Translations under genes and position numbers: made by a program | Notes under the pieces: generated by a model | The model's database searches: none | What the model was told of the DNA's origin: nothing | Seen by the model: only the letters and a program-made list of their open reading frames with translations | Part shown: in pieces, positions 916 through 59,105 of the stretch | Position numbering within the stretch: position 1 is the first letter of the stretch | How the letters are laid out: the number at the start of each line of letters is the position of its first letter | DNA from: Pacificibacter marinus | GTDB lineage: Bacteria > Pseudomonadota > Alphaproteobacteria > Rhodobacterales > Rhodobacteraceae | DNA length: 64,000 nucleotides | Direction: 5' to 3' | NCBI RefSeq assembly: GCF_018860505.1 | Contig: NZ_JAHKPU010000029.1 | Coordinates: 1 to 64,000, forward strand

Positions 916-931
916 TTGGCTGTCCTCAATT

Positions 932-949: not shown

Positions 950-1000
950 GCACACTTACACATACTAGAAAAGTACAAATTCAACAGTGGTGGAGCCAAA

Positions 1001-37473: not shown

Positions 37474-37479
37474 CCCAAC

Positions 37480-37513
37480 TTGGCGCGCGAGGTATGATGC
37501 CCCCGCGCGCCAA
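37480..37513 (+). other. Intra-operon hairpin between dctP and dctQ
   Basis: TTGGCGCGCG (37480-37489) and CGCGCGCCAA (37504-37513) form a perfect 10-bp GC-rich stem with a 14-base loop. No T-run follows. In this position such a stem would protect the 3' end of the dctP message and reduce expression of the downstream membrane genes, giving excess binding protein. Confidence 0.75.
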
Positions 37514-37527
37514 CAGGAAGGCTGCTT

Positions 37528-44198: not shown

Positions 44199-44303
44199 AT
44201 ATCGACCTGATCCTTTTGTGCCTGTCGCCAGACTAGAATTGAGTTTGACATAAGTCAACAAAGGTGTCACAAAATATTAAATGCTATCACATTTTAATAA
44301 AGG

Positions 44304-45662
44304 ATGTGGCAATTGCCTCAACTCGATCCCGAAAACTGGCTGAAATCCAACCCAGATGCGACCTCAGCAACCATTGCGATCTGCGATATCAACGGGGTGT
44401 TTCGCGGCAAACGCGTGCCCGTTGAACAAATCGTCAAGATTTTCAAAGACGGTGTGCGTATGCCCACGTCCTCATGCACTGTTGATATTTGGGGCTGCGA
44501 TCTTGAAGACAGCGAATTGGTGTTTGACTCAGGGGATGCCGATGCCATCTGCACCGTCACAGACCGCGGTTTGGTAGAACGTCATATCGCGGGACAGATA
44601 TCGGCTTTCGTGCCAGTCACCATGTTTAACGAGGATGGAACCCCAGAGCCGACAGACCCAAGACAGGCTCTTGCCGCAATTGTTGATCGGTTCAAATCCC
44701 ACGGCTATAGGCCTGTTGTTGCGACCGAACTTGAATTTTATCTGACCTCAGGCCCCGCAGAAGAGGTGGAACCCGCGACCCTTCCGGGTGAGGCCGGACC
44801 ACTGGAACATCACAACGTTTTATCCGTGGCCGAGCTGGACCAATTGCAGCCGTTTCTGGACGATATTTATGCCGAAGCAACCCGCCAAGGCATCGTGCCA
44901 GATGCGATTATTTCTGAAAGCGGCACAGCCCAGTTTGAATTGAACCTAATGCACAGCGACGACGCCCTGCGCGCAGCCGATGACGCGGTTTTGTTCAAAA
45001 ACCTCGTGCGCAGCGTTGCCCGCGCCCATGGGTTTCGTGCGACCTTTATGGCCAAACCCTTTGGCGACAAGGCGGGCAACGGGTTGCATGTGCATTTCTC
45101 GGTGCTGGACGCGGCGGGACAGAATATTTTCGATAACGGCACTGACGACGGCTCAGATCTGATGCTGCACGCAGTTGCTGGGCTGGCGGCCATGATGACC
45201 GACAGCGCATTGATTTTCGCGCCGCATCAAAACAGCTACCGACGCATCCGGCCCAATGCCCATGCCCCCACGGCTGTGGCTTGGGGCTATGAAAACCGCA
45301 CCTGTGCCATTCGCATTCCAGGTGGTGCCAATGCTGCGCGACGCATCGAACACCGCGTTGCTGGCGGCGATGCCAACCCTTACTTGGTTTTGACGGCCAT
45401 TTTGGGGGCAGCGATTTATGGCATAGAAAACAAACTCACGCCCCCTGCCCCGACTGAGGGCAACGCCTATGAAACAGACGCGCCCTTGCTGCCGCTGCAT
45501 TGGCACGGGGCTATCGATGCCTTTGAGAAAAGCACTTTGCTGCCGCATATCATCGACCCCCAATTGATCCGGCTATTTGCACAGATCAAAACGCAGGAAC
45601 TTGATAAACTTCTCAGCATCGTCCCCGCCAGCGAATACAGCGCCTATTTGGAGACCGTGTGA
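44304..45662 (+). CDS. Glutamine synthetase-like gamma-glutamylamine synthetase (PuuA-type), copy 2
   Basis: A 452-residue glutamine-synthetase-family ligase with ATELEFYL, ESGTAQFELNLMHSDDALRAAD, MAKPFGDKAGNGLHVHFS and RIPGGANAARRIEHRVAGGDANPYL. It has the same layout as the enzyme at 40812 but differs at many residues in matching motifs, so it is a diverged paralogue and not a recent duplicate. It overlaps the following FAD oxidase by ATGA and is divergent from the GntR gene. Glutamate is the expected acceptor; the amine is unknown. Confidence 0.83.
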   Translation: MWQLPQLDPENWLKSNPDATSATIAICDINGVFRGKRVPVEQIVKIFKDGVRMPTSSCTVDIWGCDLEDSELVFDSGDADAICTVTDRGLVERHIAGQISAFVPVTMFNEDGTPEPTDPRQALAAIVDRFKSHGYRPVVATELEFYLTSGPAEEVEPATLPGEAGPLEHHNVLSVAELDQLQPFLDDIYAEATRQGIVPDAIISESGTAQFELNLMHSDDALRAADDAVLFKNLVRSVARAHGFRATFMAKPFGDKAGNGLHVHFSVLDAAGQNIFDNGTDDGSDLMLHAVAGLAAMMTDSALIFAPHQNSYRRIRPNAHAPTAVAWGYENRTCAIRIPGGANAARRIEHRVAGGDANPYLVLTAILGAAIYGIENKLTPPAPTEGNAYETDAPLLPLHWHGAIDAFEKSTLLPHIIDPQLIRLFAQIKTQELDKLLSIVPASEYSAYLETV

Positions 45663-46969
45663 TGACCCCGCCCCGTCCTTATGCTGGTAACGGCGATCAC
45701 ACCGACAGCTACTATGCCGCCTCTGCCAACACGCGAATTTTGCGCTCTGCACTAACCGGAGATCAAAGTTTTGACATTTGTGTTGTAGGCGCTGGATATT
45801 CTGGCCTGTCCACAGCGCTGCATCTGGCGGAAAAAGGCCATAACGTTGCCATCGTTGAGGGCGCGCGGATCGGCTGGGGCGCTTCTGGACGCAATGGCGG
45901 GCAAGTCGTCAACGGGCTGAACGCATCGTTGCAAACCATCGAACGCCGCTACGGCCCAGACACCGCGACATTCGTGTCTGGTCTGGTGATGGAAGGGGCC
46001 GAGATCATTCGCGAGCGGGTCAGAACCTATGACATCGATTGCGATTTGAAACCGACGAACCTGTTCACCGCCTACACTGATGCCCATATGCGCGAGCTTG
46101 AAGAACGACTTGCCTTGTGGCGCGGCTACGGTATTGAGACGCAAGAAATAGTGTCTAAAGCACAGATGCGAGACTATGTCGGTTCTGACGTTTACGCAGG
46201 CGGGATGATCGATCACGCAGGCGGCCATATGCATCCGCTCAATCTGGCTTTGGGCGAAGCGGCCGCCTTCGAGCAAAACGGCGGCACGATTTATGAGATG
46301 TCACGCGTGATTGACGTCCATTACGACCAGCCCAACCCTGTCGTGAAAACTGCGCAGGGCAGCATCACCTGCAAAAAAGTTGTGCTATGTGGCAACGCCT
46401 ATCTAGGCCACGTGGTGCCAAAATTGACGGCGCGGGTCATGCCTGTGTCAACGCAAATGATGGCCACGGAACCCCTGTCCCAAGACCAAGCCGAACGTTT
46501 GCTGCCCACAGACACTTGCGTCGAAGACATTCGATTTATCCTCGATTATTTCCGCCTGTCAGCCGACAATCGCCTGCTGTTTGGCGGCGGGACTGTTTAT
46601 GGCGGCGCAGACCCTAAAGACATCGAATCCAAGCTGCGCAAGAATATGCACAAGGTGTTTCCCGAACTGAAAGCCACAAAAATTGACTACGCTTGGAGCG
46701 GCAATTTCGCCCTGTCGTTCAGCCGTGTACCTCAATTGGGGCGTCTGAACGACAACACCTATTTCGCGCATGGCTATTCCGGCCACGGGGTCACAGGATC
46801 GCACACATTTGGTCGCATTCTCGCCGAAGCCATCGATGGCGACATGTCGCGCTTTGATGTCTTTGCAGGCTTGCCGTGGATTCCCTTTCCCGGTGGACGC
46901 CTGCTCCGCGTGCCCTATTCAATGATCGGCTCTTGGTATTACAGTTTCAAAGACAAGTTTGGAGTGTGA
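45659..46969 (+). CDS. FAD-dependent amine oxidoreductase (PuuB-type), copy 2
   Basis: A 436-residue DAO-family flavoprotein with FDICVVGAGYSGLSTALHLA (about residues 38-57), then GWGASGRNGGQVVNG and the C-terminal YFAHGYSGHGVTGSHTFG. It parallels the oxidase at 42204 and partners the second ligase by a 4-bp overlap. It likely oxidises a gamma-glutamylated amine. The start may be either of two adjacent ATG codons at 45659 and 45662. Confidence 0.83.
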   Translation: MMTPPRPYAGNGDHTDSYYAASANTRILRSALTGDQSFDICVVGAGYSGLSTALHLAEKGHNVAIVEGARIGWGASGRNGGQVVNGLNASLQTIERRYGPDTATFVSGLVMEGAEIIRERVRTYDIDCDLKPTNLFTAYTDAHMRELEERLALWRGYGIETQEIVSKAQMRDYVGSDVYAGGMIDHAGGHMHPLNLALGEAAAFEQNGGTIYEMSRVIDVHYDQPNPVVKTAQGSITCKKVVLCGNAYLGHVVPKLTARVMPVSTQMMATEPLSQDQAERLLPTDTCVEDIRFILDYFRLSADNRLLFGGGTVYGGADPKDIESKLRKNMHKVFPELKATKIDYAWSGNFALSFSRVPQLGRLNDNTYFAHGYSGHGVTGSHTFGRILAEAIDGDMSRFDVFAGLPWIPFPGGRLLRVPYSMIGSWYYSFKDKFGV

Positions 46970-46976
46970 AGACAGT

Positions 46977-47666
46977 ATGAAAATCGGTATCCTACAAACT
47001 GGGCGCGCCCCTGATGAAGCCTTGCCGGATTACGGCGATTACAACGATTTTTTCGTTCATTTCCTGAAAGACAGAGATTTTGAATTTCAAACCTACGCCG
47101 TCCTCGATGGCGACTTTCCCCAAAGCCCCGCAGAGGCCCAAGGCTGGTTGATCACAGGGTCAAAGTTCGGCGCCTATGAAAACCACATGTGGATTCCCCC
47201 ACTTGAGGCATTCTTACGCGCAGCCTTTGCCGCCGAAGTGCCTATTTTCGGGGTCTGTTTTGGTCATCAAATCCTTGCGCAGGCCTTAGGCGGCAAGGTC
47301 GCGAAATACGCGCAAGGCTGGTCCGTTGGTCCGCAAACCTACCAAAGTGATCTGTTTGGCGATCAAAAGATGATCGCGTGGCACCAAGACCAAGTCGTCA
47401 CTCGCCCGACTTCGGCCTCTGTCGCCGGATCCTCTGCTTTTTGCGAAAACGCGATTCTCACCTATGGCAATCGCGCGCTGACCATTCAGCCGCATCCTGA
47501 GTTTTCAGTATCGTTTTTCCACACGTTGCTAGAGCATCGCGGTGACGATTTGCCTGATGCTATTCGCAAGCAAGCAAGCGCTGCCAACAGCGATAATCTA
47601 TCATCATTGGCCTTTGCCAGTATCGTCGAAGACTTTTTTAAACGTCGCGGAAAATTTGCAGATTAA
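46977..47666 (+). CDS. Class I glutamine amidotransferase-like hydrolase
   Basis: A 229-residue class I amidotransferase-fold protein with the nucleophile elbow FGVCFGHQILAQALGGKV and the catalytic histidine in IQPHPEFS. Together with the preceding ligase and oxidase it could remove the gamma-glutamyl group at the end of the pathway, the job done by PuuD, although its sequence is closer to the GMP-synthase-like amidotransferase branch. The ATG at 46977 follows GGAGTGTGAA; a TTG at 46959 would overlap the oxidase. It is the last gene of this operon. Confidence 0.78.
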   Translation: MKIGILQTGRAPDEALPDYGDYNDFFVHFLKDRDFEFQTYAVLDGDFPQSPAEAQGWLITGSKFGAYENHMWIPPLEAFLRAAFAAEVPIFGVCFGHQILAQALGGKVAKYAQGWSVGPQTYQSDLFGDQKMIAWHQDQVVTRPTSASVAGSSAFCENAILTYGNRALTIQPHPEFSVSFFHTLLEHRGDDLPDAIRKQASAANSDNLSSLAFASIVEDFFKRRGKFAD

Positions 47667-47681
47667 GCACTCCAAAGCAGC

Positions 47682-48674
47682 TTAGCCCAGCATAAACGCC
47701 CCGATCAAAACAAAGCCTGCAAGGAAAATACTTTGCATCACCAACAGCCCGATCGCCGGCCCGCCGACCTGTAAAATACGCGGGATAGACGTCTTCATTC
47801 CGACCGCGGCGATGGCCGTCAAAAGCGCCCAACGAGACACCACAGAGGCCAAGTCGCGCACAAACTCTGGCAACACGTGAAACGAATTCAGGGCCGCGAT
47901 GATCAAAAACGCCAAGACAAACCTAGGTAGTAGCGGTGGGCGCGCTTCGCCGGGTTCAGCGTATTTGCGCAAAAACATCGAGGCAATCAGCACCACAGGT
48001 GCCAACATGGTGACGCGGATCAATTTGACCACCGTGGCCAGATCGCCTGTTTCTTCGGAAATCGAATATCCCGCGCCGACAACTTGGGCGACATCGTGAA
48101 TGGTTCCGCCCAAAAACACGCCGGATTGGCGCAAATTCAACCCTAAAATATCGGCTAAAATCGGATAAAAAATCATCGCGATGGTCGACAGAACAGTCAC
48201 GCTGACAACCGTGAACACCAGATCACGTTCACGGGTTTCGCCTTTGGGCAAAATCGAGGCAATGGCCATCGCAGCAGAAGCCCCACAAATGGCGACAGAA
48301 CCACCCGTGAGAAAAGCAAACATCATACCGCGCCCAAAAAACCGGCCAATCAACAGTGAAAACAGAATGGTCAAAATCACCGCGATGATGATCAACGCCA
48401 CCAACGCAGGCCCCAAGGCTTGCAGCATCTCGATGCTGATCCGTGCACCCAACAACGCCACGCCAAAGCGCAAAAGCCCCTTGGCAGCAAAGGCAACACC
48501 GGGTTCTGTGCGTGTCTCTTCTGACAAAAACTGCAAAGAGATGCCCAGCAGAATGGCCATCAACATCGCTGGCGCGCCGTAATGTTCTGACAAAAATTGC
48601 GCTGTCACCGCCACAAGGCCCGCGATCACAAGTCCGGGAAAAATCCGCTCTGTGGTGTGTTTCAGGTTTAGCAT
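47682..48674 (-). CDS. YeiH/TauZ-family putative sulfite/sulfate exporter
   Basis: A 330-residue membrane protein with about ten hydrophobic segments of the YeiH family (COG2855, PF03601): LMAILLGISLQFLSEE, GLLRFGVALLGARISIEML, FLTGGSVAICGASAAMAIAS and VFLGGTIHDVAQVVGAGYSIS. Members named TauZ or SuyZ accompany sulfonate-degrading enzymes and are proposed to export sulfite or sulfate. It lies on the same strand as, and at the end of, the monooxygenase/TRAP cluster, separated from it by a decayed gene. This supports a desulfonation function for the whole region. Confidence 0.8.
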   Translation of the reverse strand: MLNLKHTTERIFPGLVIAGLVAVTAQFLSEHYGAPAMLMAILLGISLQFLSEETRTEPGVAFAAKGLLRFGVALLGARISIEMLQALGPALVALIIIAVILTILFSLLIGRFFGRGMMFAFLTGGSVAICGASAAMAIASILPKGETRERDLVFTVVSVTVLSTIAMIFYPILADILGLNLRQSGVFLGGTIHDVAQVVGAGYSISEETGDLATVVKLIRVTMLAPVVLIASMFLRKYAEPGEARPPLLPRFVLAFLIIAALNSFHVLPEFVRDLASVVSRWALLTAIAAVGMKTSIPRILQVGGPAIGLLVMQSIFLAGFVLIGAFMLG

Positions 48675-48687
48675 TGATAAGTCCTAG

Positions 48688-48861
48688 TTTCGTTGTAAGT
48701 CACTGGGCCAGTATGACGGCGCATCAAAAGCGGCCATCGGCGGGGATCCTGATGCGGCGATTTCGTTGAAAGAGATTGTGAAGAAGATGACGCCAGAGCA
48801 GATCGATCAGGCGCATATTTTGGTGAATGATTACAAGGTTGGGATGTACCCGTTCAGTTGA
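48688..48861 (+). pseudogene. Remnant of a Sel1-repeat protein C-terminus
   Basis: The plus strand here reads YDGASKAAIGGDPDAAISL then KEIVKKMTPEQIDQAHILVN and ends PFS-stop. The GDPDAA...MTPEQI pattern is the usual C-terminal end of Sel1/TPR-like repeat proteins. It has no start codon in a sensible place, no ribosome site and no upstream repeats, so it is a fragment left by deletion. It sits between the exporter gene and the TRAP genes. Confidence 0.55.
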
Positions 48862-48926
48862 TCCGGTGACAGATGATCAGGTGGGGCGCGCGCTTACAAC
48901 ATACACACGCACGCCCCGGATTGTTT

Positions 48927-49985
48927 TTAGTTCAGGTCAGCATCACGGGCTGCGTTCACATCCGCTTCGGCAGCTGCAACAGCGACATTCAATGCGTCGA
49001 AAGCCGCTTCGCCGTTTGCAACATTGGCTTTGAACCAGTCGTACACAGGGGCTGCGGCGGCTTTGAAATCCGCTTTTTGCTCTGGTGATGGCACGTAAAG
49101 ATCACCGCCACCTGCGACGAATTCTTCATAGGCAGCGATGGATTTGCGCTTGGGTGAGGCGAAAGTCGCCTGTTGCAAAGCGTAGAAGCCATCAACCACA
49201 ACACGGCGCATATCTTCGGGCATGGACATGAATGTCTCGTTCGACATCCACCACAAAGCGCCCATGTAAGCATGGCCATCCAAGGTCACATATTGCAAAC
49301 CTGCGTCTGGGAATTTCATCCCCATAATGTCGGTGATGCCGTTTTTAGAGCCTTCAACAACGCCCGTTTGGAACGATGTGAACAGCTCAGGCCAAGGGAT
49401 CGGAGTCGGGGACGCGCCCATAGCTTTCACCAGCTCTTGCGGCAAGTCAGCCACAACAGTGCGGATTTTCAGGCCTTCCATGTCGGTAGGCTCGGCAATA
49501 CGGCGTTTCGTATTGGCAAAGTTGCGCCAACCGCCTGTGTTGCCAACAGTCATCAACCGGACAGTATCGCCTGAATCGGCCAAAGCCATATCGCGCAATG
49601 TACGCACAAAATCGCCAGACAGCACATGTTCCGCGATTCGGTCGTCGGCCATCAGATATGGCAGGTCAAGCACTTGCACATAGGGGAAAATGCCCGCAGC
49701 ACCACCTGAGGTCGAAATGTAAATATCGACGCTGCCGTCCGCCACGCCTTGCAAACATTCCGCGCCGTTTGAACACAGCTGCGTGCCGATGAACAATTCA
49801 ACCTCGATCGCGCCGTTAGACGCCGCTTCGACGTAGTTTTTGAACACCACAAGACCGTCATAGTCTTCGTCGTTTTCATTCGAATTCGCTGTCGCGCGCA
49901 GCTTGAAATCCGCCGCAGTGGCCGACAAAGCCGTCCCAGCCAAAAGCGCGGATAGCGCGAGTGTTTTAAGCGTGTTTTTGAGCAT
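48927..49985 (-). CDS. TRAP transporter substrate-binding protein of the sulfonate cluster
   Basis: A 352-residue DctP-family periplasmic protein with a Sec signal peptide of about 25 residues (LKTLALSALLAGTALSATAA) and the motifs FIGTQLCSNGAECLQGVADGSVD and MEGLKIRTVVADLPQELVKAMGA. An unusual pair of cysteines (LCSNGAEC) may form a disulfide. The ATG at 49985 has a strong ribosome site, GGGAGGA. It is the third TRAP gene in the unusual order Q-M-P. It probably delivers the sulfonated substrate processed by the enzymes upstream in the operon. Confidence 0.87.
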   Translation of the reverse strand: MLKNTLKTLALSALLAGTALSATAADFKLRATANSNENDEDYDGLVVFKNYVEAASNGAIEVELFIGTQLCSNGAECLQGVADGSVDIYISTSGGAAGIFPYVQVLDLPYLMADDRIAEHVLSGDFVRTLRDMALADSGDTVRLMTVGNTGGWRNFANTKRRIAEPTDMEGLKIRTVVADLPQELVKAMGASPTPIPWPELFTSFQTGVVEGSKNGITDIMGMKFPDAGLQYVTLDGHAYMGALWWMSNETFMSMPEDMRRVVVDGFYALQQATFASPKRKSIAAYEEFVAGGGDLYVPSPEQKADFKAAAAPVYDWFKANVANGEAAFDALNVAVAAAEADVNAARDADLN

Positions 49986-50010
49986 AGTAGTTCCTCCCTG
50001 ATACTCTATT

Positions 50011-51300
50011 TTAATTGGCAAATCCGGTGAGCCTTGGAATGGTCATCGAAATCGCCGGTACGTAAGTAATTAGAAAAATCACGATCACTTCCACGGCCAA
50101 GAATGGCAAAATCGCTTTGGAAATCGCTTCGACCTTTTCGCCTGACACGGCGGAGGCCACGAACAAGATCAACCCCATCGGCGGTGTCGCCAACCCAACG
50201 GTCAAGTTGACCGACATGATGATCGCAAAGTGGATCGGGTCCACACCAAGATTGATAAATATTGGCCCCAAAATAGGCCCCAAAATGATAATCGCAGGCC
50301 CCGCGTCCAAGAACATCCCAACCGCAAACAACAGCAGGTTGATCAAGAACAACAACACCAGTGGATTGTCGGACAGCGACAAAATAAAGCTCGCCATCTG
50401 TTCAGGCGCATGGCTCAGGCTCACCACCGTTTTAAACGCCATTGCCGCGCCAACCAGCAGCAAGACCACCGCTGATGTGGTGCCCGAGCGGATCAAAATG
50501 CCAGGCACTTCTGATATCGTCAGCGTGCGCAAGACAAAGAACCCTATGAACAACGCATAGGCCACCGCGACAGCCGCCGCTTCGGTGGGCGTAAATATCC
50601 CAACCAAGATACCGCCCAGAATGATCACAGGTGTCAGCAATGGCCAGAACGCTTTCAAAGACGCCTGCCCGCGCTCGCCCCATGTGTATTTGCGACTGGC
50701 AACCGGAAAGTCATATTTGTTGGCCATAAACTTGATCATCAACATCAAACCAATGCCAATCATCGCCCCTGGCACGATCCCCGCCAAGAACAGCGCAGCC
50801 ACGCTTTCGCCCATCACGTAAGCGTAAATGATCATGATCCCTGAGGGCGGAATAATCGGCCCAATAACAGACGACGCCGCCGTGATCGCAGCGGCAAATT
50901 TACGGGTGTAACCTTGCTTTTCCATAGCAGGGATCAACATCGATCCAAGCGCGGATGTGTCCGCCACAGCAGAGCCAGACAGACCGGCAAACAGCATCGA
51001 CGACAGCACATTCACATGTGCCAAGCCCCCGCGCAAATGTCCCATCAAGGCTTGAGCAAATTCAACAAGGCGCATCGTGATGCCGCCTTTGTTCATCAAT
51101 TCCCCCGCCAACATGAAAAACGGAATCGCCATCAAAGGAAAGCTGTCCATACCGTTGTAAACATTGCGGTACAAAAGCGTGATGTCTTTTTCTTGACCAT
51201 TGAGCCAAAGCAAAAGGCCAGGGGCAGCCAAAAGCCCAAAAAAGACCGGCAAACCGATCATCAAAAAGACAAGAAAAACAGGTAAAAACCAAACCAGCAT
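50011..51300 (-). CDS. TRAP transporter large permease (DctM family)
   Basis: A 429-residue DctM-type membrane protein: FPLMAIPFFMLAGELMN, NVLSSMLFAGLSGSAVADTSALGSMLIPAM, PPSGIMIIYAYVMGES and GIFTPTEAAAVAVAYALF. It begins in a TAATG overlap with dctQ and ends 25 bp before dctP. It forms the ion-driven channel for the cluster. Sequence differs clearly from the other DctM at 37994, so the two systems probably carry different substrates. Confidence 0.9.
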   Translation of the reverse strand: MLVWFLPVFLVFLMIGLPVFFGLLAAPGLLLWLNGQEKDITLLYRNVYNGMDSFPLMAIPFFMLAGELMNKGGITMRLVEFAQALMGHLRGGLAHVNVLSSMLFAGLSGSAVADTSALGSMLIPAMEKQGYTRKFAAAITAASSVIGPIIPPSGIMIIYAYVMGESVAALFLAGIVPGAMIGIGLMLMIKFMANKYDFPVASRKYTWGERGQASLKAFWPLLTPVIILGGILVGIFTPTEAAAVAVAYALFIGFFVLRTLTISEVPGILIRSGTTSAVVLLLVGAAMAFKTVVSLSHAPEQMASFILSLSDNPLVLLFLINLLLFAVGMFLDAGPAIIILGPILGPIFINLGVDPIHFAIIMSVNLTVGLATPPMGLILFVASAVSGEKVEAISKAILPFLAVEVIVIFLITYVPAISMTIPRLTGFAN

Positions 51301-51872
51301 TATTCTGCCCCCCCAGCATCAGCCACAACAATCGGCGTCAGGCGGTCTTCACCGCCCAAAATCGACACCAAAGCACGTAAAATCAATTCAATATTGACGC
51401 TGGTCAGCAAAATGACCCCGACCAAAAGCGAACTCATCATCCACGAGCGCGGCACCCGCAACAGCTCTGAAAAATCAAAAGACGTGGGCACATATAACGC
51501 AGCTGTGGCGAAGCGCCCGCCAAAGCCGGTGACTTCGCCCCAACCGATTTTCACAGCAACCACCAAGACCAAGAGTGACAAAAATAAAAGCAACAGGTTG
51601 ATCACCCCGCCAACAACACGCGGCAGCATCACCACCAACATGTCGATGGCGACGAAACCGCCTTGGCGAAACGCTGTCGGAGCCATCAAACCCGCCATCC
51701 ACAACATGCAAAAACGCGCGGCCTCATCGGGCCACGGCAACGCGTTGTTTAGAACGTAACGATAAAAGACCTGTATCAAGATGGCGATAACCATCAAGCC
51801 TACAGCCAATGCACCCACGCCGCGCGCCACACGTAAAACGTGATGGTTCACGGCCCCTAGCGGTGCAAGCAC
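51300..51872 (-). CDS. TRAP transporter small permease (DctQ family)
   Basis: A DctQ-type membrane protein of about 190 residues with four hydrophobic segments (GALAVGLMVIAILIQVFYRYV, FCMLWMAGLMAPTAF, GGVINLLLLFLSLLVLVVAV, SSLLVGVILLTSVNIELIL). The start is uncertain: a GTG at 51890 opens the frame, but the GTG at 51872 is preceded by GGGAGGA at good spacing and is preferred. It lies about 100 bp after the flavin reductase gene on the same strand and overlaps dctM by TAATG. Confidence 0.83.
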   Translation of the reverse strand: MLAPLGAVNHHVLRVARGVGALAVGLMVIAILIQVFYRYVLNNALPWPDEAARFCMLWMAGLMAPTAFRQGGFVAIDMLVVMLPRVVGGVINLLLLFLSLLVLVVAVKIGWGEVTGFGGRFATAALYVPTSFDFSELLRVPRSWMMSSLLVGVILLTSVNIELILRALVSILGGEDRLTPIVVADAGGAE

Positions 51873-51970
51873 CAGTAACAGTCCTCCCACAGACTTTCTC
51901 CTCCCATGATGACCCTTGTCAGGCCTTTTCCTCTTATATCAGTCGTCCCGAAATCCGCTCCTTTGCCGTT

Positions 51971-52486
51971 TTATGCCGCTTGAAAGACACCGTATTTGCC
52001 AGCAAAAAAACCAAGCGCATTGCCTTGATTGATTTCGGCCCGTGTGACTTGCCCCACCACGATCACATGATCGCCTCCAGGATGGGTCGCAACATGACGG
52101 CATTCAAGACGCGCCAAGCAATTGTTGATCAGTGGCACGCCCTGCGCGCTGGTGGTCATGTCCAAATTATCAAAGGCGTGCATGTTGCGCGCAAAGCCTT
52201 CGCAGACCTCAGCTTGGTCGTCCGCTAGAATATGGATGGCATAATGGGGGGCTGCCTCGAAATATTTGAACCGGCGCGATCCTTTGGCGGGTGACCACAG
52301 TACAAGCGCAGGGTCCAAAGACAATGATGAAAAGCTATTGGCGGTGATGCCCACAGGGCCATCGTCTGAGGCAGCTGTGATAACAGTCACCCCAGTTGCA
52401 AAACGCCCAAAGGCATCGCGTAGCAAGCGTGTGTTGTCAGCGTTGGGTTTAAAACATTCTGGCATCAATACGTTCCCCTGTCCCAT
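51971..52486 (-). CDS. Flavin reductase, partner of the LLM monooxygenase (SmoA-like)
   Basis: A 171-residue protein of the flavin reductase-like family with LRDAFGRFATGVTVITA at the N-terminus, NSFSSLSLDPALVLW and HVIVVGQVTRAE. It would supply reduced FMN to the monooxygenase encoded two genes upstream. It is coupled by a TAATG overlap to the aldo/keto reductase gene. In the known sulfoquinovose monooxygenase pathway the equivalent partner is SmoA; that naming is an inference from context. Confidence 0.85.
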   Translation of the reverse strand: MGQGNVLMPECFKPNADNTRLLRDAFGRFATGVTVITAASDDGPVGITANSFSSLSLDPALVLWSPAKGSRRFKYFEAAPHYAIHILADDQAEVCEGFARNMHAFDNLDMTTSAQGVPLINNCLARLECRHVATHPGGDHVIVVGQVTRAEINQGNALGFFAGKYGVFQAA

Positions 52487-53376
52487 TATGCGACCTCACG
52501 ACCCAAGGCTGCGGTGTAGAGTTTGTACCACGTTTGGCGGTCCATTTTGACTTTGAACGCGTCCGAAATCGCGGCAATACGCGTCAAATTGTTTGTGCCC
52601 ATAACGGGCAAAATCTTAGCGGGATGCGCCAAGACCCAAGCCACAGCAACTGCCGAGCGATCCACGCCGTTCTCGTTTGCAATGACGTCTAGCATACGCC
52701 CGATGTCGTCATCTGCGGTCATCAAAGCCCCGCCACCCAAAGGCGACCACGCCATGATCGGTTGTGCATTCTTTTGGTGGAACGCGATATCGCCATTGAC
52801 CAAACCCTCATGCGCGGACAGCGACACTTCAAGTTGGTTGGTGACAAGTGGGGCGTTCATACCCGCTTGCAGCAAGTCCCAATCCCAAGGTTTGAAATTT
52901 GACACGCCGATGTTGCCGACTTTGCCAGAGGCCACGAGCGCATCCAAAGCAGCACCCGTTTCATGGTGGTCCATCAAAGGATCAGGGCGATGCACCAACA
53001 AAAGATCGATGTGATCGATTGCCATGCTGGTCAAAGACGCCTCGACAGAAGCATTCAGATGCGCCGCAGAGGTGTCGTAATATTTGACTGGAACATCGCT
53101 GTATTTGCCACAAGGCGCCACGATATCGCATTTGGTCACGATCTGCATTTGGTCGCGCAAGGCGGACTGACCCCGCAGGGCTGTGCCCAAAACGGCCTCG
53201 GCGGTGTAATCGCCATAGATGTCGGCTTGGTCAAATGTTGTGATCCCCTGCGCAAGGCAAGCCTCGATTTTGGCAGTCACATGTTTGACCGACGTGTCAG
53301 CGTCATCAGCCACACGCCACATGCCGTAAACAATGCGGCTCATCTCTAGGGTATCAGAAAAACGAATACGTTCCAT
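52486..53376 (-). CDS. Aldo/keto reductase (SmoB-like)
   Basis: A 296-residue NAD(P)H-dependent aldo/keto reductase. The catalytic tetrad region is visible: FDQADIYGDYTAE (Asp and Tyr), IVTKCDI (Lys) and LLLVHRPDPLM (His), with IGVSNFKPWDWDLL and the cofactor segment ILPVMGTNNLTRI. In sulfoquinovose monooxygenase pathways an enzyme of this family, SmoB, reduces 6-dehydroglucose to glucose after desulfonation. The tight TAATG coupling to both the monooxygenase and the flavin reductase supports that role, but the substrate cannot be read from sequence. Confidence 0.83.
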   Translation of the reverse strand: MERIRFSDTLEMSRIVYGMWRVADDADTSVKHVTAKIEACLAQGITTFDQADIYGDYTAEAVLGTALRGQSALRDQMQIVTKCDIVAPCGKYSDVPVKYYDTSAAHLNASVEASLTSMAIDHIDLLLVHRPDPLMDHHETGAALDALVASGKVGNIGVSNFKPWDWDLLQAGMNAPLVTNQLEVSLSAHEGLVNGDIAFHQKNAQPIMAWSPLGGGALMTADDDIGRMLDVIANENGVDRSAVAVAWVLAHPAKILPVMGTNNLTRIAAISDAFKVKMDRQTWYKLYTAALGREVA

Positions 53377-54530
53377 TAACGGCGGTCTCCTGCGGCCAAA
53401 GGTGTTTGGGGGGCGCTGCTCGGCACGCGGCCATAGGCTTGCGGCATTGAGCAGGTTTTAAGATGTGGCAACACAAGGCGACCAAAGTGTTCGGCCTCAT
53501 CAATGTGCGGATAGCCCGAGAAAATAAACGCGCGTATGCCCATTTTTTGGTAGGCTTCGATCTTGGACAAAACCTGATCCGCAGAGCCAACAAGCGCCGC
53601 GCCACAGCCAGATCTTGCACGACCAACACCAGTCCAGAGGTTGGGCTCGATATAGCCATACTCGTCCGCAAGTTCACGGTTCGCCGCTTGGTGCGACACG
53701 CCCAAAGACCCCGCATCCAACGCCCGTTCACGGATCATCCGGCCATAGTCGTCATCCAGTTTCGACGTGATGTATTCTGCGTATTCCTGCGCTTCTTTTT
53801 CCGTATCGCGCACAATCATATGCACCCGCAGACCGTAATCCAGCGTGCGATCATATTTCTCTGCCACAGCGTTCACAGCACGCATCCGGCCAGCCAGCTC
53901 TTCTTGCTTTTCAGGCCACATCAAATATACGTCGCAATGCTGACCGCACAGCTCCAGCGCCATCGGAGAATAGCCGCCAAAGTACAACAACGGCCCGCCC
54001 GTTTGGTACGGCACGACAGGGTCCGTTGTCAGACCCTTAAAGTTGTAAATCTCGCCCTCGTAATTGATCTCGCGCTGCGTCCATGCCTGCTTCAAAATCT
54101 CCACGACCTCGCGCGATCGTTGATATCTATAGGCACTTTCTTCCTTCTGCCCGGGGAAATCAGAGCTGATGATATTAACCGTCAAGCGCCCTTCCAACAT
54201 GTGATCCAGCGTTGCCAAAGTCCGCGCCAACATGATCGGCTGCATCTCTCCGCAGCGCACTGCTGCCAGCAAATTTATGTCCGTGGTGATCGGCGCGCAG
54301 CCCGCCACAAACGACAACGTGTCTTGGCCAACTTGATACGAGGATGGGCACAAAATATTGCCAAACCCTTGCTTTTCCGCCGTTTTCACAATGTTAGAAC
54401 AATGCGCCCAACTGGAGCGCAAATCCCCGTCAGGCACGCCCAAAAACTGGTAATCGTCCGAACATAGGGCTGCGAACCATGATACTTCTGCGGCGTCTAA
54501 ATCTGGCGATGTGATAGGTACGATGGTCAT
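53376..54530 (-). CDS. LLM-class FMN-dependent monooxygenase (SsuD/SmoC-like desulfonase)
   Basis: A 384-residue luciferase-like monooxygenase related to alkanesulfonate monooxygenase SsuD. Visible parts include LAAVRCGEMQPIMLARTLATLDH, RLTVNIISSDFPGQ, YRYQRSREVVEILKQAW and YFGGYSPMALELC. Such enzymes use FMNH2 and oxygen to split a carbon-sulfur bond, giving sulfite and an aldehyde. The ATG at 54530 has a strong GGGAGGG site. It heads the operon with the reductases and TRAP genes and diverges from a GntR gene. Sulfoquinovose monooxygenase is the best guess; other sulfonates or non-sulfur substrates cannot be excluded. Confidence 0.83.
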   Translation of the reverse strand: MTIVPITSPDLDAAEVSWFAALCSDDYQFLGVPDGDLRSSWAHCSNIVKTAEKQGFGNILCPSSYQVGQDTLSFVAGCAPITTDINLLAAVRCGEMQPIMLARTLATLDHMLEGRLTVNIISSDFPGQKEESAYRYQRSREVVEILKQAWTQREINYEGEIYNFKGLTTDPVVPYQTGGPLLYFGGYSPMALELCGQHCDVYLMWPEKQEELAGRMRAVNAVAEKYDRTLDYGLRVHMIVRDTEKEAQEYAEYITSKLDDDYGRMIRERALDAGSLGVSHQAANRELADEYGYIEPNLWTGVGRARSGCGAALVGSADQVLSKIEAYQKMGIRAFIFSGYPHIDEAEHFGRLVLPHLKTCSMPQAYGRVPSSAPQTPLAAGDRR

Positions 54531-54581
54531 CGCTTCCCTCCCAAGAATGCGTCTCACTTTCCACTTGCCTAGCACTCAAAA

Positions 54582-54606
54582 TGATGTAGATCAATGGTGT
54601 ATCAAT
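54582..54606. promoter_or_regulatory. Candidate GntR operator in the divergent sulfonate-cluster promoter
   Basis: ATCAAT occurs at 54590-54595 and 54601-54606, 11 bp or one helical turn apart, and the first copy is part of the small palindrome TGATGTAGATCA (54582-54593). This lies in the 109-bp gap between the monooxygenase and regulator genes, where the GntR protein would be expected to bind. It is a weak, purely positional prediction. Confidence 0.3.
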
Positions 54607-54639
54607 TTTTTATCTCTGTTGCCTCTAAGGATCAAATCC

Positions 54640-55350
54640 ATGAAACCGAGCGGTGGAAATCCCAACGTTTTGCCAGCCTATGTTCAGATTTCTGAACTGC
54701 TGATCCGTGACATCAGCGCGGGCCGTTTAATGGATGGTGAACGCCTTCCGCCCGAACGTGAAATGGCTAAATCCCTGAAAACATCCGTGGGCACACTGCG
54801 TAAAGCGCTCGATATTCTCGTTGAAAAAAACCTGCTTGAGCGTATCCAAGGCTCTGGCAATTACATCCGCCATGGCGGTGACAGCAACAGCATCTATGCC
54901 ATGTTTCGCTTGGAACTTCTCGGCGGTGGCGGCTTGCCAATCGCGCAAATCCTTAGCATTGACGCGATGGAAAAACCGCACAGCCTGCCCCCCTTTGGCA
55001 CCAGCACACATGCCACCCGAATCCGTCGCCTGCGGTTTCTCAATGAAACAATTATTGCCGTAGAAGAAATCTGGCTCGATGCAGATGCAGGCCAAGTCCC
55101 TGAAGGGGCCATTTCTGATTCGCTTTACCACTTCTACAAAGAACAGCTTGGCTTTTGGATCACCCGTGCCGAAGACCGCGTGGGCATTGGCGCAGTCCCC
55201 GAATGGGCCCCTGAAAATTTCACCAAACCCAGCGGAACACTCACCGGATATATAGAACGCTTAAGTTGGGCAGACGCCCCTGAAGCTGTCGAATTTTCAC
55301 GCACATGGTTTGACACCGATCAAGCCCTCTACGTGCAACGCCTCAAATAA
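54640..55350 (+). CDS. GntR/UTRA-family regulator of the sulfonate cluster
   Basis: A 236-residue regulator with a GntR winged helix (AYVQISELLIRDISAGRLMDG, REMAKSLKTSVGTLRKALDIL, LLERIQGSGNYIRHG) and a C-terminal UTRA domain ending WFDTDQALYVQRL. UTRA domains often bind sugars or related small molecules, which agrees with a sulfosugar inducer. The ATG at 54640 follows AAGGA and fits the domain start; a longer frame from 54511 would overlap the monooxygenase gene. It is followed after 44 bp by the Gfo/Idh/MocA gene. Confidence 0.85.
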   Translation: MKPSGGNPNVLPAYVQISELLIRDISAGRLMDGERLPPEREMAKSLKTSVGTLRKALDILVEKNLLERIQGSGNYIRHGGDSNSIYAMFRLELLGGGGLPIAQILSIDAMEKPHSLPPFGTSTHATRIRRLRFLNETIIAVEEIWLDADAGQVPEGAISDSLYHFYKEQLGFWITRAEDRVGIGAVPEWAPENFTKPSGTLTGYIERLSWADAPEAVEFSRTWFDTDQALYVQRLK

Positions 55351-55394
55351 GGCCTGAAATAAGACCCTAAAACGGCCAGAAAAAAGGAAAGACT

Positions 55395-56504
55395 ATGACG
55401 ACCACACATTACGGCATCATCGGCTGTGGCATGATGGGACAAGAACACCTGCGCAACATCGCATTACTGCCCGATACAAAAGTCACCGCGATCTATGAGC
55501 CAGACCCAAACATGGCCGAAATCGCTGCTAGCTTTGCCCCAGATGCGCAATTTTGCGACAGTATAGACGCGCTTTTGGCAATCGAGGCTTTGGATTGCCT
55601 TGTCATCGTCAGCCCTAATTTTTGCCATATGGACCAACTGGAAAAAATCGCAGCTACGCGCCCCCTGCCCGTTCTTGTCGAAAAACCTTTGTTCACCGAT
55701 CCCGCAGATGTCACGCGCCTGAAAGCCTTCCAAGACAACTACCCCGCCCCTGTCTGGGTCGCGATGGAATATCGCTATATGCCCCCAGTGGCCGCTTTGC
55801 GGTCCGCCGTCGATGACGCCACAGGCGGCATCAAAATGTTGACCATCCGCGAACACCGCTTTCCATTCTTACCTAAAGTCGGCGACTGGAATCGCTTCAA
55901 TGAAAAATCAGGCGGCACATTTGTTGAAAAATGCTGCCACTTCTTTGACCTCATGCGCTTGCTGACAAAATCCGAACCCCTGCGGATCATGGCCAGTGCG
56001 GGCCAAAACGTGAATCATCTTGATGAGGTTTACGAAGGCAAACCATCTGACATTCTGGACAACGGCTATGTCATCGTAGACTTCGCAAACGGCATGCGCG
56101 CCATGTTGGAACTGTGCATGTTCGCCGAAGGGGCGCGCTACCAAGAAGAAATCAGTGCCGTTGGACCAAAAGGCAAAATCGAAGCGCTGGTTCCAGGTCC
56201 GGGTCGTTTTTGGCCAGCACATCTTGGCGATGCGCCGATTCCCCAACTTATCGTCAGCCCTCGTGATCCCAAAGGGCCCGAAGTGCGCGACATTCCCGTT
56301 GATCCGACACTATTGGAAGCGGGCGATCATAACGGCTCAACTTTTTATCAACACGAAGGTTTTCTGGCCTTGGTGCGTGGTGAGCGCGCCCTGCCCGATG
56401 TCAGTTTAAACGATGGTTGGAAAGCTGTTGCGATGGGAATGGCTGCGCAAAAAAGTGCCCTGACAGGTCAGGTTGTCACATTGGATGAATTCGCAGCACC
56501 GTAA
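55395..56504 (+). CDS. Gfo/Idh/MocA-family oxidoreductase, candidate NAD-dependent sulfoglycosidase
   Basis: A 369-residue protein with an N-terminal NAD-binding fold (YGIIGCGMMGQEHLRNIALL), the family's EKP motif in PVLVEKPLF (about residue 96), and the C-terminal substrate domain (FNEKSGGTFVEKCCHFFDLM). Most relatives are sugar dehydrogenases. A recently described branch (GH188) uses NAD transiently to cleave sulfoquinovosides and is found in sulfoquinovose clusters, so that is a plausible role here where no classical sulfoquinovosidase gene is seen. This remains inference. A strong hairpin terminator follows. Confidence 0.78.
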   Translation: MTTTHYGIIGCGMMGQEHLRNIALLPDTKVTAIYEPDPNMAEIAASFAPDAQFCDSIDALLAIEALDCLVIVSPNFCHMDQLEKIAATRPLPVLVEKPLFTDPADVTRLKAFQDNYPAPVWVAMEYRYMPPVAALRSAVDDATGGIKMLTIREHRFPFLPKVGDWNRFNEKSGGTFVEKCCHFFDLMRLLTKSEPLRIMASAGQNVNHLDEVYEGKPSDILDNGYVIVDFANGMRAMLELCMFAEGARYQEEISAVGPKGKIEALVPGPGRFWPAHLGDAPIPQLIVSPRDPKGPEVRDIPVDPTLLEAGDHNGSTFYQHEGFLALVRGERALPDVSLNDGWKAVAMGMAAQKSALTGQVVTLDEFAAP

Positions 56505-56549: not shown

Positions 56550-56579
56550 AAGACCCTAACCGCGTGGTTAGGGTCTTTT
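56550..56579 (+). terminator. Terminator after the Gfo/Idh/MocA gene, containing GACCCTAA repeat
   Basis: AAGACCCTAACC (56550-56561) and GGTTAGGGTCTT (56566-56577) form a perfect 12-bp stem with a 4-base loop, ending in TTTT. It lies between the converging Gfo/Idh/MocA and parB genes. Its core, GACCCTAA...TTAGGGTC, recurs as an inverted repeat at 59420-59445 on the other side of parAB, so it may also be a partition or replication site. Confidence 0.8.
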
Positions 56580-56614: not shown

Positions 56615-57703
56615 TTAAGGCGCGTCTAAAAGACGTTCCAGCTCCGCCATAGCGATCTCAACCAACTCCTGATCCACGCGGTCGCCGTTGATCCGGATCA
56701 TCCACCCCTGCCCGTCTTGGCTGCTGGCCAGTCGAACGCCTGATTTCAACTGCCGCGCACTGTGCGGCGCTGCTGGGGCTTTCTTTGGCCGCCCCCCGCG
56801 TGCTGGGTCTTTTCGGACGACGGTCAATGCAGACAATGCGGTTTCAATCTGTTGAAGTTCTTGCTCAGGCGTCGTGGGCGTGGTGATGGCCAAAGCGTCC
56901 CGCAGCTTGGCCTCATGCCCTTCACGCAGGGCGGCGGCCAGTTTCAAACCATCGCGCTCTTTCAGCATGTCAGGGAAAACCAGCATATCGCCAAGTTCTT
57001 CAAAGATCAGTGCAAAGGATCGTATTTTAGATCTCTTGGCTTTTGACGCCATCGGGAACAGCCCATTCACAGCGGCTTCGGTATTTTCAAACGCGCCCTG
57101 CTGGGCGGCGATCACCGAAATACGTCCTCGTTCATAATGGCTTAACGCGGCGCGAATTTCGTTTTCTTCGATCATCGCCGCAAAGGTGCCACCCATGGCA
57201 TCAGGGTCGCGTACGATGGCTTTGATGGTATTGTACTTCGCATCTTTGGTCAGGTCTTTTAACGCTTGCACCGCGTGCAAGCGGCGGTAACCAGACAGCA
57301 GGCCGTAACGGCGCTCACCCTCAGGTTCAGACAGCTCAAACACCTCAATCGGCAATCGAAGCCCGCCTTTGGCGATCGACATTTGCAGTTCATTCATCTG
57401 CTCGGCGTCCAGAACAACGCGGTCACGCACCAAAGCGTCAGCGTGGATGGATTCCAAAAGTAATTCTTTTAGTATCAGACCCTTAGAGACAGAGTCACGT
57501 AAAATTTCGGCATCTGCGCTGTCTTTCGCAGATTTTTCGCGATCTGCCTGCGTCCGTGGATCAAATGCCCCAGCTGATTCGGCCGCCACCTGCGCAATAG
57601 GAACACTTAACGGCGCGCGCGCTGTGGTTTCGCCGCGAAACTCCTGTTCGATCTGATCCAGATCTGACGCGGATGGAGTCACCAGTTTTCTACGCTTCGC
57701 CAT
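56615..57703 (-). CDS. parB: ParB-family plasmid partition protein
   Basis: A 362-residue DNA-binding partition protein with a ParB/Srx-type N-terminal domain (LRLPIEVFELSEPEGERRYGLLSGYRRLHAVQ, then AAMIEENEIRAALSHYERG), a central helix-turn-helix region and a basic C-terminal part (DPARGGRPKKAP). It binds parS-like sites and works with ParA to segregate the replicon. It overlaps parA by 14 bp on the same strand. The gene order parA-parB diverging from rep is common on Rhodobacterales plasmids. Confidence 0.85.
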   Translation of the reverse strand: MAKRRKLVTPSASDLDQIEQEFRGETTARAPLSVPIAQVAAESAGAFDPRTQADREKSAKDSADAEILRDSVSKGLILKELLLESIHADALVRDRVVLDAEQMNELQMSIAKGGLRLPIEVFELSEPEGERRYGLLSGYRRLHAVQALKDLTKDAKYNTIKAIVRDPDAMGGTFAAMIEENEIRAALSHYERGRISVIAAQQGAFENTEAAVNGLFPMASKAKRSKIRSFALIFEELGDMLVFPDMLKERDGLKLAAALREGHEAKLRDALAITTPTTPEQELQQIETALSALTVVRKDPARGGRPKKAPAAPHSARQLKSGVRLASSQDGQGWMIRINGDRVDQELVEIAMAELERLLDAP

Positions 57704-59105
57704 CTGTATTTTCCTCTGTTTTCTCTGCTTCAGCCGCCTGCAAATCGCGCCACCATGTGCCTAAAATCACCCGTTTTACTTCGGCCCAGGTCTGATCAAA
57801 TGTCTCACGACCGCGCACATAGGTATCGCGATTAAAATCGCGGTAATCGGTCTCATAAATTCCCGACACTTGCTCACCCGCTTGCCCAACCATGGCCGTC
57901 ACATCTTGTCGATAGGTGGTCATGAAGTCACCGAAATAGGCCTGAATTACATTGGCCAAATCCGTTTGTTGAGCGGCGTCGAAACGGGTGATAAGCGCCA
58001 AAACGGCATCCCATTCAAATCGCATTTCAGGCAATCCATCGGCGCGCCGATTGCGGTTTTCGCCTTCTTCGATTGAGGCAAAAGTGGAATAGATCATATC
58101 AAAGAATCGGCCCGTTGAGTCGAATTCCAAAAACGACGCGCCAAGGGGAACCAGCATAATGTCAGCGGCAGCCAAGGCGTTGATCGTCAGGTATCCAAGT
58201 GCTGGCGGCGTATCGAGAAAGATCAAATCATAGTCGTCAAGCAAACCGCCATCTTCGAGCGCGTTGGACAGCGCATCCCATAGCGTCCATGAGCGCAACT
58301 GCATCCGCCAAACGGGCACTTGGAATTCCGCCCAATACAAATTTAGTTGGGCACCTATGAGATCGATATTGGGCCAATGCGTCTTTTGAACGAGGTTTCG
58401 CGGCGAAACTGTTAACGCTTCGGTAAGGGTTTCGTCGAACGGAAAAGGCGCTTGCCCTGCCGCTTCACGGACCTTGTTTTCACGCTGCAATGCCAAGGCA
58501 TAATCGCGGGCCAAAAGCGGGAAGGCTGTTTCCCATTCGTCGGCCACGGTCCCGCCCAATATCGATGTCATCGATCCCTGACTGTCCAAATCAATGACGA
58601 GAACCTTGTAGCCATCAAGAGCCGCTGACATCGCCAAATGAGCAGATGTGGAGGTCTTACCAACACCGCCTTTGAAATTTGCAACCGCAACGACTTTGGC
58701 TGGCAATCCCTCGGGCCGCCAAGCGGTGTATTCGCGGTTTGCGGCTCCTTCTTTACTGAAATGCTCGCGCAGTTTCTGCACATCTTCTAAGCTGAACCAC
58801 TTGGAATTGCCCTCACCTTCGCCCTGCGGCAATTCCAGATTGGCTTTCAAAACACGTCGCAAATGTGCAGGAGCTACAGGAATTAGATACTTGCATATCT
58901 CCCATGTCGAAAACTTGCGCAGACGTTTTTCCCCATCCGGCGCATAGCCGCGTTTTGCCAAATCATCACGACCTCGTCCTGCGAAAGCGGCGGCCTTTGC
59001 GAAGCGTGCCGTGTTGATCGGCGCTGCCAAACTTTCTGCTGCTGCTTTCGGGTCTATATTGAAATAAGGTGGGAGGGCCTCTTTGCCCTTATTGCCTGAT
59101 GTCAT
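57690..59105 (-). CDS. parA: ParA-family plasmid partition ATPase
   Basis: A 471-residue Walker-type ATPase. The deviant Walker A is FKGGVGKTSTSAH (about residue 148), with switch and Walker B segments VLVIDLDSQGSMTSIL and DLIFLDTPPALGYLTI. The long N-terminal region of about 140 residues, with KFSTWEICKYLIPVAPAHLRRVL, probably contains a DNA-binding helix-turn-helix as in type Ia plasmid ParA proteins, which autorepress their operon. It diverges from rep across the origin region. Confidence 0.88.
   Translation of the reverse strand: MTSGNKGKEALPPYFNIDPKAAAESLAAPINTARFAKAAAFAGRGRDDLAKRGYAPDGEKRLRKFSTWEICKYLIPVAPAHLRRVLKANLELPQGEGEGNSKWFSLEDVQKLREHFSKEGAANREYTAWRPEGLPAKVVAVANFKGGVGKTSTSAHLAMSAALDGYKVLVIDLDSQGSMTSILGGTVADEWETAFPLLARDYALALQRENKVREAAGQAPFPFDETLTEALTVSPRNLVQKTHWPNIDLIGAQLNLYWAEFQVPVWRMQLRSWTLWDALSNALEDGGLLDDYDLIFLDTPPALGYLTINALAAADIMLVPLGASFLEFDSTGRFFDMIYSTFASIEEGENRNRRADGLPEMRFEWDAVLALITRFDAAQQTDLANVIQAYFGDFMTTYRQDVTAMVGQAGEQVSGIYETDYRDFNRDTYVRGRETFDQTWAEVKRVILGTWWRDLQAAEAEKTEENTDGEA

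Follow-up and report, generated by a model that had tools for sequence, protein, structure and literature searches.

The DNA analyzed here, called the window, is a stretch of 64,000 nucleotides from Pacificibacter marinus (contig NZ_JAHKPU010000029.1), and its positions 47682-56504 raise the question of which sulfonated sugar the encoded enzymes would degrade and how that compound would enter the cell. We read the locus as a plasmid-borne operon of the sulfoquinovose monooxygenase (sulfo-SMO) type, predicted to serve the use of sulfoquinovosyl glycerol (SQGro) and sulfoquinovose (SQ), and assign this reading a probability of about 0.87. The nine open reading frames (ORFs) and labels that a first-pass annotation had assigned to this region were borne out; every frame was intact and correctly placed, and its Pfam domain fitted the label. 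The minus strand carries smoC-smoB-smoA, the dctQ-dctM-dctP genes of a tripartite ATP-independent periplasmic (TRAP) transporter and yeiH, with gntR and a gene for a Gfo/Idh/MocA protein diverging from them on the plus strand. The TAATG overlaps described earlier between smoC and smoB (53376) and between smoB and smoA (52486) are real, and a third joins dctQ to dctM (51300). Comparison of relatives, together with the ribosome-binding context, pointed to likely starts at 54530 rather than 54575 for smoC, at an ATG at 54640 rather than 54511 for gntR, and at an ATG at 49985 rather than 50021 for dctP; the corrected starts thus give a gntR-smoC intergenic region of 109 bp.

The smoC-like gene (53376-54530, minus strand) encodes a Bac_luciferase-domain protein of the SsuD-like, luciferase-like monooxygenase (LLM) kind, predicted to be an FMNH2-dependent sulfoquinovose monooxygenase. 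When compared by phmmer with the PDB, this protein matched 7oh2 (E = 3e-202) and 7olf (E = 7.6e-202), and SsuD-type chains followed at 6.7e-52 to 2.1e-51. The smoB-like gene (52486-53376, minus strand; Aldo_ket_red domain) encodes an aldo/keto reductase, predicted to be a 6-dehydroglucose reductase, which matched 7bby (E = 2.7e-122) and 7bbz (E = 3.1e-122), with YdhF next at 2.5e-57. We take 7oh2 and 7olf to be SmoC, and 7bby and 7bbz to be SmoB, of the sulfo-SMO papers; the names that these four entries bear in the PDB (alkanesulfonate monooxygenase, methanesulfonate sulfonatase, aryl-alcohol dehydrogenase) weigh against our reading. With the chains so assigned, homologues of SmoB and SmoC are encoded together, and both matches stand far ahead of the next families, in agreement with the sulfo-SMO-type operon proposed at first pass. 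Such joint encoding of SmoB and SmoC homologues is the criterion for sulfo-SMO in the excerpts of PMC13372026. The smoA-like gene (51971-52486, minus strand; Flavin_Reduct, PF01613, E = 9.5e-38) encodes a flavin reductase, predicted to supply FMNH2; its nearest NCBIfam model was FerA (210.7 bits, cut-off 260), and it is placed at the family level only. The comparison with characterized SmoA, SmoB and SmoC that the first-pass annotation had called for therefore came out in favor of SmoC and SmoB, given our identification of the PDB chains, and for SmoA reached no further than the family.

Five SmoC residues (W205, R235, H237, Y340 and H342), which are presumably the SQ contacts, were identical in all 98 rows of the SmoC alignment, and the closest named relative among the best 80 of at least 559 was that of P. 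marinus F2R14 (99%). One could instead suppose that the LLM enzyme is a general SsuD-type alkanesulfonate monooxygenase for sulfur scavenging rather than a sulfosugar enzyme, since the curated NCBIfam models that fit it best are those of SsuD and the closest chains carry general sulfonate names in two PDB entries. The protein scored only 235.5 bits against the NCBIfam SsuD equivalog, however, far below the cut-off of 518.2; the SsuD-type chains reached 6.7e-52 at best versus 3e-202, and the adjoining SmoB-type reductase and glycoside hydrolase family 188 (GH188) protein are not known to take part in scavenging by SsuD. We rejected SsuD-type scavenging on these scores and regard it as scarcely credible.

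The GH188 assignment concerns the plus-strand gene at 55395-56504, whose SqgA-like product has GFO_IDH_MocA domains and is a predicted NAD+-dependent sulfoquinovosidase. Its PDB matches were 8zn9 (E = 5.8e-167), 8qc3 (ArSqgA, 4.4e-112) and 8qc2 (FlSqgA, 1.4e-111), followed by an inositol dehydrogenase at 6e-22. In the alignment, Lys97, Tyr126, Arg155 and Leu159 correspond to Lys107, Tyr136, Arg166 and Leu170 of ArSqgA, and Lys161, Glu178, His182 and His312 to its Lys172, Glu189, His193 and His321. The sulfonate triad (Arg166, Leu170 and Lys172 in ArSqgA numbering) and five further active-site residues are thus kept, and ArSqgA Glu163 lies one position off the conserved Glu153 by count on the alignment. 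The structure accessions, mechanism and residues of the family were taken from the excerpts of Kaur et al. 2023 (PMC10755693), where GH188 is an NAD+-dependent sulfoquinovosidase family that is near-universal in marine Roseobacter-clade sulfo-SMO clusters. Because Pfam shows only general oxidoreductase domains, the protein might be taken for an SQ dehydrogenase or a similar oxidoreductase instead of a glycosidase. This alternative is contradicted by the strong match to both GH188 structures, by the retained catalytic and sulfonate-binding residues, and by the prevalence of the family in the Roseobacter clusters of the PMC10755693 excerpts; with the GH188 matches so far ahead of the next family, we rejected an SQ dehydrogenase in the place of the glycosidase and consider it very unlikely. 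The placement of the Gfo/Idh/MocA protein as a GH188 glycosidase, as judged from its structural matches, overturns the earlier claim that an enzyme of this type had replaced the glycosidase. GH188 is itself a sulfoquinovosidase family, and the replacement is therefore of one glycosidase family by another. As GH188 needs NAD+, it would act in the cytoplasm, and the glycoside SQGro itself should then be imported.

The sole candidate importer in the operon is the TRAP system, as the first-pass annotation had proposed. It comprises a small permease (dctQ, 51300-51890; PF04290, E = 4.1e-24), a large permease (dctM, 50011-51300; PF06808, E = 4.3e-122) and a binding protein predicted for SQGro and/or SQ (dctP, 48927-49985; PF03480, E = 5.8e-51), all on the minus strand, so that P, Q and M subunits and the conserved binding Arg of a DctP-type TRAP are present. 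With residues counted from 49991, two before the likely start, DctP R156, R177, W200 and N217 are invariant in 41 of 41 aligned relatives and align with Arg156, Arg177, Trp200 and Asn217 of IseP. In the excerpts of PMC11668362, IseP binds isethionate and is called the first sulfonate-specific TRAP binding protein. It resembles DctP as a TRAP binding protein for a sulfonate whose Arg156, Arg177 and Asn217 have equivalents here, and differs in that its ligand is a C2 sulfonate rather than a sugar or glycoside, in its distant sequence, and in a Tyr153 that is not kept. A DctP profile compared with solved structures found 4p47 as the best match and IseP as the second (E = 3.1e-32), so that the nearest PDB relatives are distant.

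The substrate was approached through co-occurrence in 295 genomes, sampled evenly from a larger collection of a single family; contig ends hide some neighbors in them. With cut-offs of E ≤ 1e-100 for smoC, ≤ 1e-90 for DctP and ≤ 1e-70 for GH188, smoC was found in 124 genomes, DctP in 102 (two of these matches being only 47-50% identical) and both in 76. The two genes share a contig and strand and lie within 12 kb of each other in 72 of the 76, and they are on different contigs in the other 4. GH188 occurred in 146 genomes, that is in 97 of the 102 with DctP versus 49 of the 193 others, and all 88 DctP-GH188 pairs that share a contig are within 15 kb of each other. Among the 26 DctP genomes without smoC, GH188 is present in 23 and lies within 15 kb of DctP in 20 of these, and two or more of three genes (isomerase, PfkB kinase, aldolase) of a cluster resembling the sulfoglycolytic Embden-Meyerhof-Parnas (sulfo-EMP) type were found at 18 of the 26 loci. 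Locus L082 is an example, in which Pfam recognized aldehyde dehydrogenase, aldose epimerase, GFO_IDH_MocA (the GH188 relative), DeoC/LacD aldolase, DeoR and PfkB domains; its fucose-isomerase-like protein fell just under the Pfam cut-off and scored 1.5e-76, also under the cut-off, with the NCBIfam model for sulfoquinovose isomerase. Such clusters share with the window related TRAP genes (DctP 83% in L082), GH188, and the Sel1 and MauG-like genes described below, and differ in having an isomerase, a PfkB kinase, a class I aldolase and an aldehyde dehydrogenase instead of smoABC, with a DeoR regulator.

Phylogeny gave a similar picture, although the DctP and SmoC trees were both quick ones. On a DctP tree of 83 rows (57 smoC loci including the window, 18 EMP and 8 other), the smoC label changes 5 times in a two-state count from which the 8 other loci were omitted, at least 4 of these changes being forced by well-supported branches; the TRAP therefore follows the substrate and not one pathway. 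On a SmoC tree of 98 rows (63 with TRAP, 34 with none, 1 undecided), presence of the TRAP requires 13 changes, at least 8 of them forced. The linkage to SQ catabolism is found whatever the pathway, and a TRAP common to two pathways sharing a substrate is most readily understood as the importer of that compound. We conclude that this TRAP very probably imports SQ or its glycoside SQGro, and its presence beside a different SQ pathway is stronger evidence on the substrate than was available at first pass.

Several observations weigh against this assignment. The Fisher tests of co-occurrence ignore the relatedness of the genomes. GH188 is missing at the cut-off from 5 of the 102 DctP genomes, and among the 26 DctP loci that lack smoC, 8 match neither of the two pathways. 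As many as 48 of the 124 smoC genomes lack such a TRAP, and the pathway therefore does not require it; GH188 is present in all 48. At the level of residues, IseP Tyr153, a sulfonate contact, is Gly in DctP, and the Arg/Arg/Asn triad is general for TRAP ligands, typically carboxylates. These points suit an alternative in which the enzymes are those of sulfo-SMO, the TRAP imports another dietary anion such as a uronic or sugar acid, 2,3-dihydroxypropane-1-sulfonate or isethionate, and SQ enters by another route. TRAP binding proteins typically take carboxylates, the sulfonate TRAPs known or proposed so far take up small molecules (isethionate, taurine and sulfolactate, the three for which TRAPs appear in the literature on gut sulfonate bacteria), the nearest PDB relatives of DctP are distant, the best being 4p47, and the 48 genomes manage without it. 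Against another anion stand the position of the TRAP genes after smoCBA on the same strand, their recurrence beside a sulfo-EMP-like SQ pathway, the presence of GH188 in 97 of the 102 DctP genomes, and the fact that, of the genes compared, the two pathways share only GH188, the TRAP genes and the Sel1/MauG-like pair. We judge import of another anion to be improbable. A literature search for SQ with TRAP transporters found no paper linking them, the papers likeliest to mention one being outside its reach. Among the papers listed, those containing both words meant by "trap" either ion traps or the trapping of a complex, those on gut sulfonate bacteria named SQ in their reference lists alone, and one on an archaeal genome was unrelated.

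Three further observations concern TRAP genes. A second, different TRAP system lies upstream in the window (36496-39256), with DctP-, DctQ- and DctM-like ORFs, DctM by Pfam. Its binding protein (36496-37470), tried as a control, occurred in 5 of the 295 genomes, too few to be useful, and in none of the 5 within 15 kb of GH188; the distance to GH188 in the window is ∼19 kb. Five TRAP loci (L096, L099, L091, L105 and L098) keep smoA and/or smoB (L098 has gntR and GH188), with smoC not detected, and a search for smoC at E ≤ 1e-15 found it in 0 of 10 genomes queried, theirs among them; such loci may use another C-S cleaving enzyme or may reflect loss. In genome G201, which has no smoC match, a gene for a PhyH-type dioxygenase adjoins dctP (L100:8029-8793), and this enzyme is a candidate alternative SQ oxygenase.

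Conservation of the gene neighborhood was examined in the best 80 of at least 559 SmoC loci, taken from genome contigs. A GntR relative lies within 8 kb of smoC in all 80 and a GH188 relative in 76, and TRAP permease genes are found within 6 kb on the same strand in 60, being absent from 19, with 1 locus too short; chance would hardly produce such a gene order. The idea of a rare variant unique to this plasmid was thereby rejected: the TRAP form is the commonest among these 80 loci and also occurs in another bacterial order. The first-pass annotation was right to place a TRAP system in a sulfo-SMO operon, and its view of the arrangement as a variant does not hold in the sense of something special to this plasmid. 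SmoC relatives at E ≤ 1e-100 were found in 18 plasmid records, seven of them less than 60% identical. Of three plasmid records compared, one, from Ruegeria sp. AD91A, shows the TRAP form; in a second, Marinovum pMaD9, smoA is followed by sugar ATP-binding cassette (ABC) genes, and the third, from Rhizobium sp. SL42, is described below. An ABC substrate-binding protein gene is present within 6 kb of smoC in some TRAP-less loci (e.g., L032, L054, L056, L060, L070 and L110). The search for ABC importers at such loci used two binding-protein queries and was not exhaustive, and we therefore claim no general rule of TRAP versus ABC.

The regulator gene gntR (54640-55350, plus strand; PF00392 and PF07702) encodes a GntR/UTRA protein. 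A tandem 11-bp repeat, TTGATACACCATTGATCTACA (54585-54605, minus strand), overlies the -35 element of the presumed smoC promoter (TTGATC, 17 nt, TAGGCA, with TGC just 5′ of TAGGCA; 54566-54594, minus strand). The core motif TTGAT-N5-ATTGAT was present in 88 of 92 gntR-smoC intergenic regions versus 1 of 18,400 mononucleotide-shuffled regions, which keep base composition only, and the kinship of the loci inflates this conservation. Of the four regions without the motif, three (L109, L111 and L114) were extracted from inside it and L070 has a variant. In 74 of the 88 regions having the core motif, TGnTA stands at the same offset (21), and with up to 3 mismatches allowed the genome contains the tandem repeat only once. 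The repeat is probably the GntR operator, and we infer binding of GntR there from this conserved motif. The presumed smoC promoter was not called by a sigma-70 consensus scan, which counts against that promoter. At the 3′ end of the gntR-sqgA unit, a terminator-like hairpin (56550-56577, plus strand) consists of a 12-pair stem followed by TTAGTCTTTA and has the highest pair count among the 24 sites of a terminator scan.

At the distal end of the minus-strand genes, ∼250 bp from dctP, yeiH (47682-48674, minus strand) encodes a YeiH/TauZ-like membrane protein (PF03601, Cons_hypoth698/YeiH, E = 4.4e-68), predicted to export sulfite. The exporter gene that the first-pass annotation had added to the pathway is thus present, with sulfite as its predicted ion. 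Two findings weigh against this role: the protein matches the Pfam model and scores below the cut-off of the NCBIfam model TIGR00698 (142.9 bits, cut-off 232.6), and a YeiH relative was found at only 15 of the best 80 SmoC loci (L001-L080). A Mo-co dimer domain of the sulfite oxidase type is encoded elsewhere in the genome (contig 49), and sulfite oxidation is therefore an alternative or an addition to export.

A predicted route through the operon follows from these assignments. DctPQM would carry SQGro and/or SQ across the inner membrane, as its co-occurrence with SQ pathways suggests, and SqgA, with its bound NAD+, would cleave SQGro in the cytoplasm to SQ and glycerol. SmoA would make FMNH2, with which SmoC and O2 would break the C-S bond to yield 6-dehydroglucose and sulfite; SmoB would reduce 6-dehydroglucose to glucose, and the YeiH-like protein would export the sulfite. 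The GntR/UTRA protein would bind the tandem repeat over the smoC promoter, from which an SQ-derived ligand may release it.

In most relatives, dctP is accompanied by a Sel1-repeat gene (PF08238) and a di-haem cytochrome c peroxidase (CCP)/MauG-like gene (PF03150; two CxxCH motifs), for example at L123:13608-15365 and L082:7135-8952. Both were found within 5 kb of dctP in 45 of 57 smoC+TRAP loci, 15 of 18 EMP+TRAP loci and 2 of 8 other TRAP loci, the Sel1 counts resting on the L123 query. Among 40 smoC loci without a detected DctP, some of them short contigs, Sel1 was found in none and CCP in one. A close MauG-like copy (at least 51% identity) is encoded in 81 of the 295 genomes, of which 76 have DctP (63 within 12 kb); three of the five without DctP have the copy ∼3 kb from smoC. 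No close copy was present in 26 of the 102 DctP genomes, including that of the window, in which the one CCP match listed lies on contig 20 and is a 45% relative. Reading of the dctP-yeiH gap in three frames revealed a 42-residue C-terminal Sel1 remnant (48730-48855, plus strand) that matches by tblastn the Sel1 protein adjoining dctP in L123 (78.6% identity, E = 7e-18). As the EMP clusters lack smoABC, our guess is that the pair is likelier tied to the substrate or its import than to peroxide from SmoA/SmoC; a literature search for SQ with MauG returned nothing related, judged by title. More tentatively, and with the odds against the full picture, members of this TRAP clade may be the first sulfosugar (SQGro/SQ) TRAP importers, serving sulfolytic and sulfoglycolytic pathways; their partners in most carriers would be a periplasmic di-haem enzyme of the MauG-like type and a Sel1-repeat protein, by which the sulfolipid head group is processed or protected as it is imported, a step seen in no published scheme that we encountered; the lineage of the window might then have lost the pair, its place being taken by the YeiH-like exporter.

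The cluster is very likely plasmid-borne, as first annotated, because genes for ParB (56615-57703; PF02195) and ParA (57690-59105; PF13614), both on the minus strand and typical of plasmid partition, and for a Rep3-type replication initiator (59692-60885, plus strand; PF01051, E = 7.2e-20) directly adjoin it; these partition and replication genes are the evidence. On the other side, genes at 43515-47666 encode an FCD-type GntR regulator, a glutamine synthetase-like protein, an FAD oxidoreductase and a glutamine amidotransferase, which we take to resemble a separate catabolic unit of the putrescine/polyamine type. Amidohydrolase and urocanase genes at 794-6208 are presumably part of a histidine utilization operon, and an AcrB-family RND-type (resistance-nodulation-division) efflux pump gene lies at 31530-34628.

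The operon is real and widespread, and its points of interest are the predicted importer, the operator and the accessory gene pair. SQ is an abundant plant sulfosugar, and its production is estimated at ∼10 billion tons per year in the excerpts of PMC10755693, and those of PMC13372026 count the Roseobacter clade among SQ degraders; no SQ importer for this clade is described in the literature passages covered. If the prediction is right, a defined TRAP clade, 97 of whose 102 carriers have GH188, would provide an uptake marker gene for metagenomes and a direct binding test, TRAP would be an alternative to ABC import of SQ, and a MauG-like partner would imply a further step that awaits explanation.

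Among the closest known systems is plasmid NZ_CP063398.1 of Rhizobium sp. SL42, which has the same nine genes in the same arrangement and orientation, ending in a "putative sulfate exporter"; it differs in belonging to another order (Hyphomicrobiales) and in being annotated with general product names only. In the Agrobacterium sulfo-SMO layout, the enzymes are accompanied by an ABC importer and a GH31 glycosidase. Here, TRAP takes the place of the ABC importer and GH188 that of GH31, and none of the nine genes was recognized as GH31. The likeness to sulfo-SMO (sulfo-ASMO) of Agrobacterium and Novosphingobium lies in the grouping of flavin reductase, LLM monooxygenase and oxidoreductase genes, as given in the excerpts of PMC13372026 and PMC12890257. 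The Roseobacter-clade sulfo-SMO clusters of Kaur et al. 2023 (PMC10755693) likewise have GH188 beside the sulfo-SMO genes and come from the same marine clade; the excerpted text describes no transporter of theirs, whereas a TRAP system is present here. As placed by sequence, the enzymes are the known Roseobacter sulfo-SMO set, ordinary in kind, and the importer is the new part.

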